A stretch of 64,000 nt of DNA, from contig NZ_QUWK01000013.1 of the NCBI RefSeq assembly GCF_003429665.1, positions 1-64,000 on the forward strand, read 5' to 3'. The notes under the pieces are model-generated. The model searched no databases, was not told where the DNA came from, and saw only the letters and a list, made by a program, of their open reading frames with translations. Made by a program: the position numbers and the translations under genes. Positions within the stretch are counted from its first letter, which is position 1, and each line of letters begins with the position of its first letter. Origin of the DNA: Sphaerochaeta halotolerans. Its GTDB lineage: Bacteria; Spirochaetota; Spirochaetia; Sphaerochaetales; Sphaerochaetaceae. Shown here in pieces: positions 5,473-14,541 of the stretch.

Positions 5473-5501
5473 ATCCTAAAGGGGGTTCTTTGCTAAGTCA
5501 A
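5473..5501 (-). promoter_or_regulatory. Promoter of etfB-etfA-glcD-tetR
   Basis: On the minus strand, TTGACT (5501-5496) is followed after 17 bp by TAGGAT (5478-5473). Transcription would start around 5466, leaving a leader of about 15 bases that carries the GAGGGG ribosome site. Confidence 0.55.
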
Positions 5502-5508
5502 CATTTTT

Positions 5509-5522
5509 TTGACCGCGGTCAA
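5509..5522. promoter_or_regulatory. 14-bp palindrome, likely TetR operator
   Basis: TTGACCGCGGTCAA is a perfect palindrome sitting 7 bp upstream of the -35 box of the etf operon. TetR regulators usually bind such short perfect dyads next to their own promoters, and the operon's last gene encodes a TetR protein. The assignment is by position only. Confidence 0.5.
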
Positions 5523-5557
5523 TTTTTAATATGCTTCTCCTTCCATTATTAAAGTAG

Positions 5558-5899
5558 AGGCAGATTCATGACCACCAGTTCTTCTCCACTCCATCGGACT
5601 TTCGCGTAGTGTTAAGAAACATAAATTATTCATTCAGCAGAGTTACCGCGCAAGTTACCGCGCAAGTTACCGCGCAAGACACCGCGCAAGACACCGCGCA
5701 AGATACCCGATTACACCTGGTGTTGGATTTTTGCTCTGTTCCAAGAACAAGGGAAGAAATACAAGAATATATTGGCATAGAACATAGGGAACATTTTAGA
5801 AAAACGTTCCTCACGCCATTACTCGCATCTGGAAAACTCCAGATGACCATACCAGACAAGCCTACCAGCAAATATCAGAAGTACTTTGCCGTACGATGA
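5558..5899 (+). pseudogene. C-terminal remnant of an AlbA/Fic-type regulator
   Basis: Only the tail of a larger protein is left. The frame reads FSTPSDFRVVL, then five TAQV/TAQD tetrapeptides, then a winged-helix-like end (REEIQEYIGIEHREHFRKTF ... MTIPDKPTSKYQKY). This combination of a repeated linker and closing helix-turn-helix is familiar from the C-termini of putative DNA-binding AlbA_2/Schlafen-like or Fic-related proteins. A stop at 5555-5557 closes the frame upstream, and the N-terminal catalytic domain is absent. The longest start codon available is GTG at 5609 without a ribosome site. It is probably dead, and the exact parent family is uncertain. Confidence 0.5.
5642..5701 (+). repeat. 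Five 12-bp tandem repeats in coding sequence
   Basis: Five direct units of (G)TTACCGCGCAA or GACACCGCGCAA lie head to tail, three of the first type and two of the second. They encode the TAQV/TAQD linker of the remnant protein. Because each unit is 12 bp, changes in copy number keep the frame. Confidence 0.85.
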
Positions 5900-5917
5900 T
5901 TTTCAGCTGGAGAATCA

Positions 5918-7189
5918 CTACATTCCTGAGAGCATATCCAAGGCTAGGTCAAACAGTCCCAATTCGTAGTAGAGATCTAGCACGGTATAGCGGTTTCGGA
6001 TCATCTGAGCACCAGTAACTGCATGGCGGAGCCCTTCCAGATTACTTGCAATATCAGCAGGAGAAACCGGACAGCCAACCTCCTTCATTGCTTCTTTCAG
6101 TTCCTGGTACGGGGGTAGTTGCTCATCCATTCTCTCAATTAGGGCAGGGAGCAAGGAGACAAGCTTCTCTCTTCGGGTAAGCAAGGCGTCCCCATCAAGG
6201 AATTTCTCTTTTGCGATGGCCAAGGTCTGTTTCCTTACGCTTTCATCGGGGAAGAATGCTGCAATCGATTGCTCGCGTTCCTCCCAACTCTCTGCACCGG
6301 TGAGCGGGATACCAGCAAGATCCAACTGCTTGAGCTGTTCATAGAGGTAGGTAATGGTCAGGGTACCGATGGAGACCTTAAAGCCATGGCTTACCGGAAG
6401 CCCATCCTTACTCAAGTGTTCCATCTCCCAGATATGGCTGATCAAGTGCTCAGCACCACTGGCAGGGCGTGAGTCATGCATCACTTGCATCGCAAACCCA
6501 CTTGCTGAAAGCGCATCGAAAAGCAGCCCGATGGAACGCCCCCTTCTTTGTGCTATCCCTGCATGATGGGCATAGACTTTTCTCAGCGGAATCTGGACCA
6601 TGTCCCATACATCTCTGCGGATTGGGTGAACCCCAACCAGATCTGCAAGAATCCAATCCATACCGGCAGTGTACTTTGCCATGCAATCACCAAAACCACT
6701 TGCGATCATGTCCATGGGAGCTTCACGGAGTACTTTGGTATCAGCAAGCACCACCATAGGGGCAGCACAGGGAAGCGTCTGCTTGAAACCACCTACCGAG
6801 ACTGCTGCGCCATAGGAGGTATATCCATCAACAGAAGGAGCTGTGGCGACAACCATATAAGGACGGTCCAATTCAGCACTTGCACGCTTGGTAATATCGT
6901 TGAGTGTTCCAGAGCCAAGGACCACTGCAATACTGTTGTCCCTCTCCAGGCTCAGCCTAACTTGTGCAATTGCATGCTCATCAGCATAAGGCTGCGGCTC
7001 AGAAGGGAAAATGAACTGTCTGACCTGGATATCAGCCTTCTCAAGCGATCTGGAAACAGGGAACCCACCGACTTTCAGTGTTATGCCATCTGCTACCAAC
7101 AACGCCGGGGTATGCCCAAATGCCTCAACAAAGACTGATCCCACCCGTTCAAGAGCCCCTTCCTCAACTACTGAAATTTTCGTATCCAT
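5918..7189 (-). CDS. AraM-like sn-glycerol-1-phosphate dehydrogenase
   Basis: A 423-residue member of the iron/zinc-containing alcohol dehydrogenase superfamily, AraM/EgsA branch. Features seen are the NAD(P) loop VVLGSGTLNDITKR, the TAPSVDGYTSYGAAV segment and the metal-binding stretch ASGAEHLISHIWEMEH with SHGFKVSIG further on. Family members reduce dihydroxyacetone phosphate to sn-glycerol-1-phosphate. In Bacillus this feeds an archaeal-type lipid, and in other bacteria the role is unclear. Start chosen at 7189 because AGGAGG lies 5 bases upstream; a longer frame to 7300 has no such site. It is transcribed divergently from a broken SGNH hydrolase gene. Confidence 0.85.
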   Translation of the reverse strand: MDTKISVVEEGALERVGSVFVEAFGHTPALLVADGITLKVGGFPVSRSLEKADIQVRQFIFPSEPQPYADEHAIAQVRLSLERDNSIAVVLGSGTLNDITKRASAELDRPYMVVATAPSVDGYTSYGAAVSVGGFKQTLPCAAPMVVLADTKVLREAPMDMIASGFGDCMAKYTAGMDWILADLVGVHPIRRDVWDMVQIPLRKVYAHHAGIAQRRGRSIGLLFDALSASGFAMQVMHDSRPASGAEHLISHIWEMEHLSKDGLPVSHGFKVSIGTLTITYLYEQLKQLDLAGIPLTGAESWEEREQSIAAFFPDESVRKQTLAIAKEKFLDGDALLTRREKLVSLLPALIERMDEQLPPYQELKEAMKEVGCPVSPADIASNLEGLRHAVTGAQMIRNRYTVLDLYYELGLFDLALDMLSGM

Positions 7190-8900: not shown

Positions 8901-9099
8901 CGAACCGAGGGGAACAGTTGATCATGTCGTAGAGAAGGTACTGTTGCACTACAATTGGTGACCTCATGTTTTCCCAATTATATCGGCAAACCATTAAAGA
9001 ACATACCCTTTCCTACTCGTGTGGATTTGAGGTATAACTGATTCTGAAGGAAGCACCTGTTTCCTAGTGGGGGAAATACTGCGACATATTGAAGGCAAA

Positions 9100-10647
9100 A
9101 TGAAACAGAAGAGAGAAAGAAAGAAAAAATTCTGGCATGTATTCTTATTCATCACCATTCTCATCGGAATGACCCTAGTTGGTCTATTATTCCGCACAGT
9201 CGGCTTTCCTGAAACCAACATCGTATTGTTGTACCTATTGGGTGTTCTCCTGATTTCACGATTCACCGGCGGTTACGCCTATGGTATCACTAGTTCCGTA
9301 TTTGCTACCGGAGCGTTCAACTATTTTTTCACTGAACCCTATTACACCCTGTCTGTTTATGATTCGAGCTACCTCATTACCTTTGCCATCATGATGGCGA
9401 CCGCCTTCATCACCAGCACACTTACTTCCAAAATCAAAATGAATGCAGAGATTGCACGTGAGAGAGAAGCGGAGGCGAATGCCTTATACCGATTAACTAG
9501 TCGCTTAACCGATGTTACGGAAATCTCGGAAATCACCAGCACGGTGGTCGAGATGGTCAGCAATCTCTTTAATTGCCAAGCAGCTTGTCTGGTCTATACA
9601 GACTTGCAAGAACCTGAGAATACCTTTATTCAGCAACAAATGAAAGGCAAACAGATTCGTCGTGAGGTTCAGGACCCCCATGCATTAAAACATCAGATTG
9701 CTGGATTGAGAACCGAATTCAATGTAGGTGAAGAATTCCATGATTGGCCTTTGTATGGCCGTGATACGATCCTTGGTGTTCTACGGATTCCCAATTCGGA
9801 TGTGTCCTTTATGAATGATTCCCAGATGAGACTGCTTCATTCAATGATTGAAAGCACTGCCCTGGCAATGGATAGGGTAAAGAGTGTTTCCGAACGACAA
9901 AGATTGAAGGAGGAAGCTACGCAAGAGCGATACCGTGGGAATCTCCTTCGAGCGATATCTCATGACTTCCGGACTCCTCTTTCGAGTATCATGGGCACCT
10001 CAGAAATGATCATGGGAGTGACAGACCCCGGGGCAGACACGCACATGCTAGCTAACACTATCTATAATGATGCTGAGCGGTTGCATTCTTTGGTAGAGAA
10101 CATCCTGGCACTTACCCGTTTGCATGAAGGCAAACTGGTTCCGGAGAAACAGCTGGAAGCTGTCGAAGAAGTGGTAGGAGCGGCAATCAAGGCTATGGCG
10201 AACCGATTGGCTGATCGTTCTGTCAAGGTGAACATTCCCAACGAAATCCTGTTGGTCCCCATGGATGCAAAACTCATCGAGCAAGTTCTTATCAACCTTC
10301 TGGACAATGCCGTCAAACACACACAACCCGACGAAGAGATTTGTATCTCGGTAGTTGAGAATAAAGTAGAGAAAAGAGCGGAGTTTCATATCGCGGACAG
10401 AGGGAAAGGGATCTCTTCAGCGGATTTGCCATATATTTTCCAGATGTTCTTTACAAGCCAGAGTGACAAGAAGGAAAAACGCCGGGGAATTGGATTGGGG
10501 CTCTCAATCTGCGAATCAATCGTCGTTGCACACGGAGGAACAATCAAGGCCGGCAATAGGATAGATGGTCCCGGAGCGGAACTTATTTTTACACTTCCCC
10601 TTCAGATTGATTGCCTGGATGAGGGAGAGACTACAAACAATGATTGA
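9100..10647 (+). CDS. KdpD-like sensor histidine kinase without KdpD/Usp domains
   Basis: A 515-residue membrane kinase. Residues about 10-105 form the four-helix DUF4118 membrane region of KdpD (WHVFLFITILIGMTLVGLLF, then LLISRFTGGYAYGI). A GAF-like domain follows, then HisKA with the phosphorylated His288 in AISHDFRTPLSSIMG, and an ATPase with LINLLDNAVKH, ADRGKGIS and GIGLGLSICE. The cytoplasmic KdpD and universal-stress domains that open classical KdpD are absent. The start is placed at 9100, where GAAGG precedes ATG; a GTG at 9067 has no such site. It is followed directly by its response regulator and then Trk genes, so potassium sensing is likely. No kdpFABC is present in the window. 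Confidence 0.88.
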   Translation: MKQKRERKKKFWHVFLFITILIGMTLVGLLFRTVGFPETNIVLLYLLGVLLISRFTGGYAYGITSSVFATGAFNYFFTEPYYTLSVYDSSYLITFAIMMATAFITSTLTSKIKMNAEIAREREAEANALYRLTSRLTDVTEISEITSTVVEMVSNLFNCQAACLVYTDLQEPENTFIQQQMKGKQIRREVQDPHALKHQIAGLRTEFNVGEEFHDWPLYGRDTILGVLRIPNSDVSFMNDSQMRLLHSMIESTALAMDRVKSVSERQRLKEEATQERYRGNLLRAISHDFRTPLSSIMGTSEMIMGVTDPGADTHMLANTIYNDAERLHSLVENILALTRLHEGKLVPEKQLEAVEEVVGAAIKAMANRLADRSVKVNIPNEILLVPMDAKLIEQVLINLLDNAVKHTQPDEEICISVVENKVEKRAEFHIADRGKGISSADLPYIFQMFFTSQSDKKEKRRGIGLGLSICESIVVAHGGTIKAGNRIDGPGAELIFTLPLQIDCLDEGETTNND

Positions 10648-10655
10648 CGGGAGAC

Positions 10656-11360
10656 ATGTCTATGCAAAATAAGAAGGAGAAAATCCTTGTTGTTGAGGAT
10701 GATGGGCAGATACGGAAATTTCTGCAATTCGCATTGGAGCAGGTAGGATTCACTGTTTCCACCGCCGGTTCGGCTCAAGATGGCTTGTCACAGTTGGTTA
10801 CCGGCCAAACCGATCTGATCCTACTTGACCTAGGTCTTCCCGATTTTGATGGATTGGAAGTGATTAGGAAAATCAGGGAGTGGTCTGAAATACCCATAAT
10901 CGTCATTTCAGCCCGTGATCAGGATAAGGATAAGATATCTGCATTGGATCAAGGGGCGGATGATTACCTGACTAAACCCTTCTCCACGGTGGAATTATTA
11001 GCAAGAATACGCGTCGCCTTGCGGCATAGGGACAGACTAGACGGGCATAAATCTGAGACAAGCGCTACTGTAGGGGAGTTGACTATCAACTTTGGCAAGC
11101 GATTGGTGTACTTAAAGGGGGAAGAATTACATACCACTCCGCTGGAGTACGCACTTCTTTCATTCCTGTTCAAGAACATTGGCAGAGTGGTCACCACGAA
11201 GAGTCTACTTCAAGAGCTGTATGGTATTTCACATAACGACGACACCCAAGCCCTGCGGGCCTTGATGGCGGGTTTACGACGAAAAATCGAGCGTAATCCT
11301 GCGACCCCCCGTTATATTTTGACTGAAATTGGCGTAGGGTATCGTTTGGTCGATGAATAA
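10656..11360 (+). CDS. KdpE-like OmpR-family response regulator
   Basis: About 234 residues: a receiver domain (KILVVEDDGQIRKFL, phosphorylation Asp58 in LILLDLGLPDFDG, conserved Lys in DDYLTKPFS) followed by an OmpR/PhoB winged helix ending in ILTEIGVGYRLVDE. It is encoded 8 bases after the kinase. Translation may begin at 10656 or at the second ATG at 10662, which lies 8 bases after GGGAG. As a KdpE relative it would activate transcription by binding direct repeats. Such repeats occur 47 bp downstream of its stop, before the TPR-trk operon. Confidence 0.9.
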   Translation: MSMQNKKEKILVVEDDGQIRKFLQFALEQVGFTVSTAGSAQDGLSQLVTGQTDLILLDLGLPDFDGLEVIRKIREWSEIPIIVISARDQDKDKISALDQGADDYLTKPFSTVELLARIRVALRHRDRLDGHKSETSATVGELTINFGKRLVYLKGEELHTTPLEYALLSFLFKNIGRVVTTKSLLQELYGISHNDDTQALRALMAGLRRKIERNPATPRYILTEIGVGYRLVDE

Positions 11361-11406
11361 GCCCCAATCACAAATTTGAAATGACCAGAATAGTCGAAGG
11401 GGAGTG

Positions 11407-11473
11407 AATCTCACACCATTCTCACAAGATTCTTGTCGTTCTCACGGGAACCTCATATACAAATTGCTATCAT
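11407..11473 (+). promoter_or_regulatory. Tandem 11-bp repeats and -10 of the trk operon
   Basis: Four related octamers, AATCTCAC, ATTCTCAC, ATTCTTGT and GTTCTCAC, begin at 11407, 11418, 11429 and 11438, spacings of 11, 11 and 9 bp, so they face the same side of the helix. A good -10 (TATCAT, 11468-11473) follows, but the expected -35 position (11445-11450) is CGGGAA, unlike TTGACA. This is the layout of a promoter activated by an OmpR/KdpE-type regulator bound next to the -35. Confidence 0.55.
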
Positions 11474-11520
11474 ATGGATGCTTGAAGGAAGGTAATAACC
11501 TTACTTAGAGGAGCTGAAGT

Positions 11521-11922
11521 ATGGATAGGCAAGACCGAACTGATATTGAGATTCAAAAGTATTGTGACATCATACGGAACCTGTTATTACAGCGAGCTTA
11601 TGATGAATGCGAGAGACGAATAATGCGAATGATGGAAAGATTTCCCCATCTGCCTGAACCCCACAACCTTTATGGGATTCTCCTGGAGAAACGGGGAGAA
11701 CATCTTTTGGCGCTGAAACACTTTAGGGCAGCATTGTCGTTGGACCCCTCCTATGCGCCGGCCATCCATAATCTTGAGACATATGCGACGCTGTTTTCCC
11801 ACGGCGCATATGCAATAGATGAGAGTGATTGTCAATCGCATGAAATCAAAACGGAATACTCCGAGTTGAAACCAAGCGAAAAGAACTGTGTTGAGGAGGA
11901 ATCAGAATACCCATGCAAATAA
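11521..11922 (+). CDS. Small TPR protein, first gene of trk operon
   Basis: A 133-residue soluble protein with about two tetratricopeptide repeats (LPEPHNLYGILLEKRGEHLL and ALKHFRAALSLDPSYAPAIH), preceded by a helical N-terminus and followed by an acidic, probably disordered tail. There is no signal peptide. It overlaps the first TrkA-type gene by 10 bases and shares the operon and promoter. TPR proteins are adaptors, so a link between the TrkA gating ring and another partner is possible but is only inference. I know of no named gene with this role. Confidence 0.75.
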   Translation: MDRQDRTDIEIQKYCDIIRNLLLQRAYDECERRIMRMMERFPHLPEPHNLYGILLEKRGEHLLALKHFRAALSLDPSYAPAIHNLETYATLFSHGAYAIDESDCQSHEIKTEYSELKPSEKNCVEEESEYPCK

Positions 11923-12392
11923 AGCCACAAAAGAAAAAATCGTCCTTATTCACAATCATTATCGGATGCGGCAAGTTGGGTGCGTCGATAGCGAATATGA
12001 TCTCAGATAGTGGAGGCGATGTTCTTATCCTCGATAAGGACAAGGATGCTTTCCGTCGTCTATCACTTCACTACGGAGGTTTGTCGGTAGTGGGGGATGC
12101 GCTTGATCTTGATAAGCTGAAGGAGATACAAATCCAAAAGGCTACGACCTTACTCGTTGTAACAAACGACGATAATACCAACAACATGGTAGCCCAGTTG
12201 GCAGTGTACCAGTTCTCAATAAAACGTGTAATCGCACGAGTCGTTGATAGAGATAAGGAAAGCATCTTCAACGCAAACGGAATACAAACCTTCTGTCCTG
12301 TTTCCTTATCCCAAGAGAGGATTGGTCAACTTTTATCAGCGGATGATCCTGTGGATGGTCAAACTGTTGATACAGAAGGGAGGGAACAATAG
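11913..12392 (+). CDS. trkA: TrkA-type potassium channel regulator, RCK_N only
   Basis: A 159-residue RCK (regulator of K+ conductance) N-terminal domain: Rossmann fold with FTIIIGCGKLGASIANMI (GxGxxG), an acidic ligand at the end of strand 2 (VLILDKDKD) and the VVGDALD segment. The second, C-terminal RCK domain seen in full TrkA/KtrA is absent or reduced to about 20 residues. It binds nucleotides and gates the TrkH subunit. The next gene, beginning right after its stop (TAGATG), is a second, longer RCK protein, so the gating ring may be mixed. Confidence 0.87.
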   Translation: MQIKPQKKKSSLFTIIIGCGKLGASIANMISDSGGDVLILDKDKDAFRRLSLHYGGLSVVGDALDLDKLKEIQIQKATTLLVVTNDDNTNNMVAQLAVYQFSIKRVIARVVDRDKESIFNANGIQTFCPVSLSQERIGQLLSADDPVDGQTVDTEGREQ

Positions 12393-13058
12393 ATGAAAAA
12401 GTCGATAGTAATAGTTGGGGGCCGCAAGAAAGCAATTATTCTAGCCAAATCCATATTGAGAAAAGGGTATGAAGTCATTGTCATAAACGAGTCATATGAA
12501 GACTGTTTATCCCTTTATGAGATACCGGGAATCTCGGTCATTCAAGGCGATGGAACAAAACCATATGTTCTGGATGATGCAAACATACACAATGTGGATA
12601 TAGCGATTGCATTGACACCCAATGATGAGGATAATCTCATGATATGTCAGTTGTGTAAGGCCCACTTCTCTGTAAAGAAAACAGTCGCTGTCGTCTCAGA
12701 TCCGAAGAAAATAGACTTCTTTTATGCAATGGGAATTGATAGGGCGGTATGCACCATTTCAACGGTCACGAGCATAATCGAGCAACAGGCATTCATCAAC
12801 GATATCACCAATATCATTCCCATTCGGGGTGGAAATATCCAGATTGTGGAGGTTCGCATCGATGGGTATTCTCCCGCAGTGGATAAGCAGTTATGGGAAA
12901 TCGATTTGCCATCGGAAGTCATCATCGGTTGCATATTACGTGGTGATGAAGCTTTGGTACCGCGGGGTAATTCCAGAATCTCAATGGGGGATACCCTGGT
13001 ACTGATTGCAGGACAACAACAAGAAATACCGGCGATCAAAGCATTGACGGGAAGGTGA
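12393..13058 (+). CDS. trkA: TrkA-type potassium uptake regulator, RCK_N and RCK_C
   Basis: A 221-residue protein with an RCK_N domain (IVIVGGRKKAIILAKSILRK, VIQGDGTKPYVLDDA, ALTPNDEDNLMICQL) and an RCK_C domain (EVRIDGYSPAVDKQLWEIDL ... GDTLVLIAG). It begins one base after the preceding RCK gene. The usual GxGxxG is altered to GGRKKA, so nucleotide binding may differ from its partner. It should assemble on the cytoplasmic face of TrkH. Confidence 0.87.
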   Translation: MKKSIVIVGGRKKAIILAKSILRKGYEVIVINESYEDCLSLYEIPGISVIQGDGTKPYVLDDANIHNVDIAIALTPNDEDNLMICQLCKAHFSVKKTVAVVSDPKKIDFFYAMGIDRAVCTISTVTSIIEQQAFINDITNIIPIRGGNIQIVEVRIDGYSPAVDKQLWEIDLPSEVIIGCILRGDEALVPRGNSRISMGDTLVLIAGQQQEIPAIKALTGR

Positions 13059-13062
13059 AGTC

Positions 13063-14541
13063 ATGGGATATTCAGTTTCCAAACTCTCAAGTGTGGGCAA
13101 ATTCATGATGCTGATTGGCATTCTGGTTGCTATTCCATTGTTAGTTGTTCCATTTGATGCGCAGGACAATCAGTTTGCCTGGAGCTTTATTATTCCGGCG
13201 TCATTCTCTCTTCTTTGTGGCTTCCTGTTATTTCTGTATAGAAAAAAAAGGAGTGGAGCGGTAGAAAATCTCGGCTGGAAATCATCAATGCAGCATAGCA
13301 GCATCATTGTTCTATTTGCATGGGCCTGGGGTATGGTGATTGGTGCATTCCCGTTTTTCTTAAGCGGTCAATTGCGTTTGATTCAGTCCTTGTTCGAATC
13401 GATAAGTGGATGGACAACGACAGGATTGTCAGTGATGGATACATCGAATACACCTAAGATCTTTCTGTTTTATCGGAGTTTCATGCAATTTTGTGGTGGT
13501 CTAGGGTTTGTGATGATGATGAACATGTTCATCCAAGAAAAACAATCAATGAGACTTTATAATGCTGAAGGGCATTCCGACAAACTTTTACCAAATTTGA
13601 GAAAAACCACCCAGCTTATCTTTCTAATGTATGGAGGATTGTTGGCAGCTGGCACTTTGCTCTATAGCATTGTTGGCATGAATATTTTTGAATCATTGTT
13701 ACACGCAATGTGTGCACTGTCTACCGGTGGCTTTTCAACTCGATTGGGAAGCATTGGGGAATACAACAGCATCGGAATCGAGCTAGTCACAATTCTTCTC
13801 ATGCTGTTCGGAACAACTAATTTTGCCGTTCTTCTACTCATATTCAAAATGAAATGGAGACAAGTGGGTCGTGTCAGCGAAGTACAGTTGCTGCTCGGAC
13901 TTCTCTGTCTCGGGATACCTGTTTTTGCTCTCGGATTGCTGCAAAATCATCAGTATATGGGAATAGAAGCATTCAGGATTGCAGTATTCAATGTGATTTC
14001 CGCGCTTTCGACCACTGGTTACTCTACAATTGATTTTCAAGGAATGTCCCCATCTTCACTTGGGGTGATAATCCTGATGATGCTTATCGGAGGTGGAATA
14101 GGTTCAACTGCGGGGGGGATAAAGCTGGAACGGGTGTATATTGGTATCAATGTCATCGCACTGAACTTTCGCACCCGAATCAATTCTGCCAGAAGTATCC
14201 ATCCGGGATTTTTTTACAAAGCCCAAGGTAAGCACATGATTGATGACAAATTAATATTGGAGACTTCTGCCCATATATTGAGTTATCTATCAATAATTGG
14301 AGTTGGAACCATCCTTCTTGCGACAGCGGCAAATACCAACCTAATCGACGCACTTTTTGAATTTGCTTCGGCGTTTGGTACTGTCGGTTTATCAATCGGT
14401 ATTACAAATCCTAATCTTGGTAACGCAGCTTTGCTCATTGAGATGTTCGCGATGGTTCTTGGCAGATTGGAAATCTTTATTGTCTTTATCGCAATCCACT
14501 CCAGCATTGAGTTGATGCATTTGAGACCAAAAAAGGCATGA
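13063..14541 (+). CDS. trkH: TrkH/KtrB-type potassium transporter membrane subunit
   Basis: A 492-residue integral membrane protein with about ten hydrophobic segments. The selectivity-filter loops of the Trk/Ktr/HKT family are recognisable: SGWTTTGLSVMD, ALSTGGFSTR, LSTTGYSTIDF and FGTVGLSIGI. It forms the K+ path across the inner membrane and is gated by the two RCK proteins just upstream. A GGGAAGG site lies 6 bases before ATG. It is the last gene of the TPR-trk operon. Confidence 0.92.
   Translation: MGYSVSKLSSVGKFMMLIGILVAIPLLVVPFDAQDNQFAWSFIIPASFSLLCGFLLFLYRKKRSGAVENLGWKSSMQHSSIIVLFAWAWGMVIGAFPFFLSGQLRLIQSLFESISGWTTTGLSVMDTSNTPKIFLFYRSFMQFCGGLGFVMMMNMFIQEKQSMRLYNAEGHSDKLLPNLRKTTQLIFLMYGGLLAAGTLLYSIVGMNIFESLLHAMCALSTGGFSTRLGSIGEYNSIGIELVTILLMLFGTTNFAVLLLIFKMKWRQVGRVSEVQLLLGLLCLGIPVFALGLLQNHQYMGIEAFRIAVFNVISALSTTGYSTIDFQGMSPSSLGVIILMMLIGGGIGSTAGGIKLERVYIGINVIALNFRTRINSARSIHPGFFYKAQGKHMIDDKLILETSAHILSYLSIIGVGTILLATAANTNLIDALFEFASAFGTVGLSIGITNPNLGNAALLIEMFAMVLGRLEIFIVFIAIHSSIELMHLRPKKA

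Follow-up and report, generated by a model that had tools for sequence, protein, structure and literature searches.

Within a 64-kb stretch of DNA from Sphaerochaeta halotolerans (the window), a two-component system resembling KdpDE appears to be wired to the potassium importer Trk and not to Kdp. The genes of a short KdpD-like sensor kinase and a KdpE-like response regulator are followed, after a gap of 160 bases, by TPR-trkA-trkA-trkH, an order that open reading frame (ORF) calls and domain searches bear out, with its coordinates, as given in a preliminary description of this DNA; the gap holds an array of four half-sites, putatively the operator of the regulator. The central proposal of that description, a KdpDE-like pair wired to Trk, is upheld: the genome encodes no KdpA, the array is unique in the genome, it precedes TPR-trk genes in many Bacillota, it stays with trk where the gene order differs (locus L035), and it was not seen at six kdpA genes. 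The pair is likely to represent a Trk-dedicated branch of KdpDE systems that has spread horizontally and would activate trk directly when potassium is short. All genes of the operon are on the + strand, and the features are as follows.

9100..10647, + strand: short KdpD-like sensor kinase, 515 residues (ATG at 9100; open frame from GTG at 9067)
10644..11360, + strand: KdpE-like response regulator of the OmpR/PhoB family (ORF from TTG at 10644; ATG at 10656)
11409..11415, + strand: half-site R1, TCTCACA
11420..11426, + strand: half-site R2, TCTCACA, 11 bp after R1
11427..11439, + strand: 13-nt spacer, containing the third octamer of the preliminary description
11440..11446, + strand: half-site R3, TCTCACG, 20 bp after R2
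11451..11457, + strand: half-site R4, CCTCATA, 11 bp after R3
11468..11473, + strand: -10 hexamer TATCAT, 10 nt after R4
11521..11922, + strand: small TPR protein, 133 amino acids, first gene of the putatively controlled operon
11913..12392, + strand: TrkA-like protein 1, TrkA_N domain only (10-base overlap with the TPR gene)
12393..13058, + strand: TrkA-like protein 2, TrkA_N and TrkA_C domains (domain search)
13063..14541, + strand: TrkH potassium channel subunit, 492 amino acids (domain and structure searches)

Operator, regulator and sensor kinase

The preliminary description had proposed four octamers (ATCTCACA, TTCTCACA, TTCTTGTC and TTCTCACG at 11408, 11419, 11430 and 11439). These sequences and their spacing of 11, 11 and 9 bp exist, but the third octamer reads CCCAGTCG in the nearest relative, which is 92-93% identical (L006), and lies within the 13-nt spacer, and was rejected as a binding site; a fourth half-site at 11451 had been overlooked. 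The aligned loci give the consensus [TCTCACA]N4[TCTCACA]N13-14[TCTCACA]N4[nCTCACA]N10[TAnnnT], with a conserved geometry of 11-20-11 followed by 10 nt to the -10 hexamer. As read from this alignment, the operator is two pairs of half-sites, each spaced by 11 bp (2+2). R3 and R4 flank the position of a -35 hexamer, and a TG at 11465-11466 makes the downstream element an extended -10. The further claim of a -10 without a -35 agrees with this TATCAT and its TG and with a sigma-70 promoter scan, which found no -35/-10 pair at the operator and site totals no higher than in shuffles. Activators such as PhoB typically work at promoters without a recognizable -35, with a fixed spacing between their final half-site and the -10.

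Arrays were scored by their matches to four copies of TCTCACA (maximum 28), a heptamer picked after the alignment had been seen, so that the score is descriptive and not blind. The array of the window scores 25, the runner-up in the 64 kb scores 18, and the best scores of 50 dinucleotide shuffles range from 18 to 21. In the whole genome (2.93 Mb in 49 contigs, estimated to be 99.99% complete), an exact three-site pattern occurs once and its control not at all. No match to any Rfam family was found in the whole window, including the ydaO riboswitch for cyclic di-AMP (c-di-AMP) upstream of the importer, and riboswitch control of the importer in the window was rejected on this ground.

The possibility of a kdp operon elsewhere in the genome, raised in the preliminary description, was rejected: no KdpA was found in the genome by a search that was positive in five of 14 control genomes, and the operator is unique there. 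The lone match to the KdpD domain (20.5 bits; cut-off 26.1), on contig 48, is by eye, from its sequence, an ORF for an FtsY-like GTPase. The genome has other trk genes: contig 28 (L089, 4873-7018) carries a second complete gene of the TrkH family with a TrkA-like partner, and contig 20 (L090, 4492-5400, minus strand) carries a shortened TrkH-like frame of 302 residues. No operator was found in the regions fetched around these two genes, where the best scores are 18.

The best NCBIfam family of the regulator is KdpE, at 226 bits, below the equivalog cut-off of 325. Its alignment conserves R193, R200 and T215 (numbered as in Escherichia coli KdpE), which are reported to be needed for DNA binding by the E. 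coli protein (PMC3264566). The recognition helix, DTQALRALMAGLRRKIE, is near-invariant, with few changes, across the array-bearing branch (the rows compared had at least 80% query cover and at least 38% identity for the regulator or at least 28% for the kinase). The canonical KdpE proteins of the same genomes (L012, L014, L015, L017 and L021) have a different helix, such as DIPSLRVYMATLRKKIE, and the regulators of genomes G031, G032 and G058 carry DTQVLRSVMASTRRKIE, their operators having also drifted. Judged from these alignments, helix and operator change together between systems.

The sensor kinase has the membrane and kinase parts of KdpD and lacks its KdpD and Usp input domains, as the preliminary description had recognized from the sequence. 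Matches to DUF4118 (109 bits), HisKA (53 bits) and HATPase (85 bits) are all above the Pfam cut-offs, and the protein aligns only to positions 400-884 of the 895-position NCBIfam KdpD model; a domain search of the protein found neither a KdpD domain (PF02702, the serine kinase with Walker A and B motifs) nor a Usp domain. The phosphoacceptor His299 (numbered from 9067) and the residues of the ATP site are invariant over 22 aligned rows. In a predicted structure (predicted template modelling score, pTM, 0.44), residues 153-246 form a mixed alpha-beta region that may be GAF-like, although Pfam GAF was unmatched, and a fold search with this model of pTM 0.44 retrieved kinases in general. At one other locus (L021, 5726-9310), a frame of 676 residues, whose start resembles a KdpD domain by eye, immediately precedes the short kinase and is possibly part of a split KdpD.

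The trk proteins of the window match PF02386, PF02254 and PF02080 among them, and TrkA is split over two genes. The closest solved structures to the TrkH model are TrkH; its score against TIGR00933 (249.6 bits) is below the cut-off of 331.15.

Distribution of the operator and descent of the pair

A contig scan for the pair gave 33 loci, mostly in Bacillota, of which 31 are orthologue-like (L006-L036); L037 and L038, with kinases of 25-26% identity that are not orthologues, were excluded from the array survey, which covered 39 sources (the window, L006-L036, L084-L087, L094, L099 and L124). An array score of at least 23 was found in 25 of the 39, all 25 having TAnnnT at the fixed place; in these the repeats, whose conservation in relatives had been in question, are kept in the 2+2 form, the third octamer excepted. 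Many of the array-bearing sources are close relatives and hence not independent. The next recognized gene after the array encodes the TPR protein in 20 sources, the first TrkA-like protein in one (L035), the kinase in two (L026 and L031) and a P-type ATPase in one (L094), and in the last (L008) the contig ends. Locus L035 has the order trkA-trkA-trkH-kinase-regulator, and its array is still ahead of trk; its trkH (5474-6981) is apparently split into two overlapping frames, by a frameshift or an assembly error. Four loci that end before or near the possible position of the array (L011, L013, L016 and L028) were not counted against it. Visual inspection of the DNA ahead of kdpA at six loci (L007, L019, L021, L023, L032 and L033) showed no array. 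In L007 and L019, kdpA lies behind trkH in the same orientation, so that read-through could co-regulate kdp there.

Of 28 pair-bearing genomes, 13 have a single occurrence of the exact three-site pattern and 15 have none, with no control match in any of the 28. A 31-position operator with at most three mismatches was found in one of 296 Spirochaetota genomes, which is the present one, and in two of 391 Clostridia genomes (G409 and G392), the control being found in none. G409 was already known before this operator-only search, which therefore had one blind success: the match in G392 had not been seen before, and it falls within a complete module whose kinase is 54% identical, in the interval from the regulator gene to TPR-trkA-trkA-trkH. 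A kinase search of the 391 Clostridia (E-value of at most 1e-80) retrieved 21 genomes, four of them with at least 50% identity, and in these the array has the 2+2 form (G392 and G409), the 2+2 form with 21-bp spacing (G145) or a contiguous variant (G436).

In G409 (L094, contig C3, 5426-9760) genes for a P-type ATPase of 946 residues and two TrkA-like proteins come after the short kinase, regulator and operator; the best model for the ATPase is the PMR1-type Ca2+ ATPase, below cut-off, and no TrkH was found at the locus. Three distant short systems, L125 (G418), L128 (G247) and L130 (G538), have half-sites CTTCACA/CTTTATA or CTTAACA/CTTTATA before the TPR gene and keep an 11-21-11 geometry followed by 10 nt; their scores are reached by 0, 1 and 0 of 300 shuffles. 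No TCTCACA array was found at L126, L127 and L129, which have short kinases of 35-38% identity, and by eye no repeat with the geometry of that array lies upstream of the TPR gene in L126. Locus L036 (2384-4705) has short or fragmented kinase, TrkA-like and TrkH-like genes followed by a piece of the regulator, and may be a module in decay or the product of poor assembly.

A split with support of 100/99 sets the branch of short kinases (31 rows) apart from 7 rows made up of C-terminal halves of full-length KdpD proteins and other outliers, and the short-branch regulators (35 rows) are separated from 9 others with support of 97/92; both trees carry long-branch warnings. When 139 genomes of the order were searched with the kinase of the window, close matches were found only in its own genome, in G122 (93%) and in G031, G032 and G058 (44-46%), and none of 25 other genomes of the genus had one. 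The window pair, the pairs of G031, G032 and G058, and that of L035 stand at different places in the regulator tree. These scattered positions and the sparse distribution make horizontal spread the likelier reading; a relative in the Bacillota is the most likely source of the module, which was probably gained by horizontal transfer. No pertinent report of gene exchange between Sphaerochaeta and Clostridia was found in the open-licence PMC literature.

Evaluation of the proposed Trk-dedicated pair and its rivals

Several observations weigh against a Trk-dedicated pair that acts through the array described here. In the window itself, R3 and R4 match the consensus at only 6 and 5 of 7 positions, and a scan found no terminator between the regulator gene and the operator, so that read-through from the kinase genes into trk is possible. 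The pair is present without an array in the DNA examined at L023, L029, L032 and L033 (the genome of L032 has an array about 14 kb further on, at L084). The array scores are only 19 at L027, 20 at the fragmented L036 and 21-22 at L085, L086 and L087, and L124 has four contiguous 11-bp repeats (score 19) not in the 2+2 form; the 2+2 geometry did not fit this last locus, whose score is attained by 16 of 300 shuffles. An array with a TPR gene and no adjacent trk is found at L014 (9265-9844), L021 (14952-15464) and L084 (2833-3286), and the array precedes the kinase gene, with no trk nearby, in L026 (at 6851) and L031 (at 1542), which indicates that the regulon is not trk alone. Autoregulation is possible in L026 and L031, where the small gene after the regulator is MarR-like by eye.

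Among the alternatives, the one that survives best, though it is rather unlikely, is that the regulator acts at the array as a repressor of trk, or tunes trk to an osmotic or c-di-AMP signal, potassium shortage not being the cue. The absence from the kinase of the Usp domain, reported to be a c-di-AMP site in some KdpD proteins (PMC11018627), would suit such a role, as would the overlap of the operator with the core promoter region; however, the promoter has no recognizable -35 and a fixed 10 nt separating the final half-site from the -10, the sensor retains the KdpD-like membrane and kinase half, and the target is a potassium importer.

It is improbable that the array is the operator of another regulator of the OmpR/PhoB family and that the adjacent KdpDE-like pair serves another target. 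The cell has further kinases (seven matches in its own genome), and another member of the family is reported to have 7-bp motifs repeated in tandem with 4 bp between them, direct repeats being reported for the family as a whole (PMC4832192), but array and adjacent pair co-occur over many genomes and gene orders, the array-only search recovered a pair (G392), helix and operator change together, and the array lies before the kinase itself in L026 and L031.

Still less credence can be given to a degraded KdpDE remnant left by the loss of kdpFABC, with trk as its neighbour by chance. A truncated kinase in a genome without kdp might be expected of a remnant, whereas the short kinase coexists with full-length KdpD and KdpE beside kdp genes in L012, from the culturable clostridial species Eisenbergiella tayi, and in L014, L015 and L017, and the pair has its own supported branch, invariant catalytic residues and a conserved trk operator. 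Finally, a chance match of the repeats has almost no probability. In its favour, the bare pair pattern with two mismatches is unenriched in the window (8 in 64 kb, 6.8 expected, not significant); against it, the full array scores 25 of 28, a value that none of 50 shuffles approaches more closely than 21, is conserved across two phyla and was recovered by a blind search. The shuffles and the conservation led to rejection of this explanation.

The geometry of the operator points to direct activation of trk by the regulator, and the sequences of the pair suggest potassium sensing and phosphotransfer. In such a Trk-dedicated system, low potassium would cause the kinase to phosphorylate the regulator, and two regulator dimers in head-to-tail arrangement would occupy R1-R2 and R3-R4, respectively; the dimer nearer the promoter would substitute for the absent -35 and recruit RNA polymerase, and Trk would serve as the inducible importer of potassium in a genome without Kdp. 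The dedicated switch of the preliminary description is supported as far as its wiring to Trk is concerned; it is not peculiar to this genome, as the branch is found mainly in Bacillota.

A more speculative extension, which we regard as doubtful, is that the short KdpDE branch constitutes a separate, horizontally mobile potassium regulon with Trk as the inducible importer and the TPR protein as a third component. The latter role is suggested by the position of the TPR gene, which comes first behind the operator and accompanies the array even at loci where no trk was found nearby (L014, L021 and L084). The TPR protein has five helices in its predicted structure (mean predicted local distance difference test score 77.7), 14 invariant columns over 17 rows and a conserved DESDC-like motif; when the model was used for a fold search, the matches were all generic TPR proteins, and none reached an E-value of 0.001 or below. 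It might take the place of the KdpD serine-kinase domain as a fast post-translational brake or scaffold acting on TrkA/TrkH or on the kinase. Under the same extension, the switch has in G409 also been coupled to a P-type cation ATPase with two TrkA proteins, and proteins of the TrkA type might gate that pump.

Comparison with known potassium regulators

Trk is described as a constitutive potassium importer and Kdp as an inducible one (PMC3610689, PMC5458449), in agreement with the preliminary description, which had remarked that Trk is usually thought constitutive. In the open-licence PMC literature, as represented by titles and the openings of abstracts, no description of a KdpDE-type pair dedicated to Trk was found. 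A conserved two-component system dedicated to Trk, with a recognizable operator, would, if true, mean that the roles of Trk and Kdp can be swapped, and the operator would allow inducible Trk systems to be predicted from sequence. The kinase would be a natural KdpD without the serine-kinase half and could help to distinguish potassium sensing from the inhibition of KdpB.

The short architecture of the kinase, with transmembrane (TM), GAF and kinase parts, is itself already known from the report of a split KdpD, in which the KdpD/Usp serine kinase is on one chain and TM/GAF/kinase on another, in a survey of species annotated with the Kdp pump (PMC11018627). The kinase of the window resembles the separate TM/GAF/kinase chain, but its genome has neither a separate KdpD/Usp chain nor the pump, and the passages of that report consulted do not mention Trk among the targets. 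PhoP of Mycobacterium tuberculosis and other OmpR/PhoB regulators are reported to have likewise a 7-bp motif, a 4-bp spacer and tandem dimers (PMC4832192), whereas the sequence of the motif, the sensor and the regulon differ from those of the window. The ydaO riboswitch of potassium importers in Bacillota indicates that transcription of an importer can be controlled (PMC6488665, PMC11018627), but that system is an RNA switch, and Rfam was unmatched in the window.

The closest comparison is with KdpD/KdpE-kdpFABC of E. coli, with which the window shares the membrane and kinase half of KdpD, the essential DNA-binding residues of the KdpE type, and head-to-tail half-sites with an 11-bp period. 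The KdpD domain of E. coli is reported to be a serine kinase that phosphorylates and inhibits KdpB (PMC11018627); we infer that it would be useless here, because KdpB is missing without KdpFABC. Unlike the E. coli system, that of the window has a kinase without the KdpD serine-kinase and Usp domains in a genome without KdpA, and its target is TPR-trkA-trkA-trkH instead of kdpFABC. The half-sites of E. coli KdpE are TTTATA and TTTACA, each of 6 bp with 5 bp between them, which make up the 11-bp period (PMC3264566), whereas those of the window are of the form TCTCACA and are arranged as two pairs, not one.

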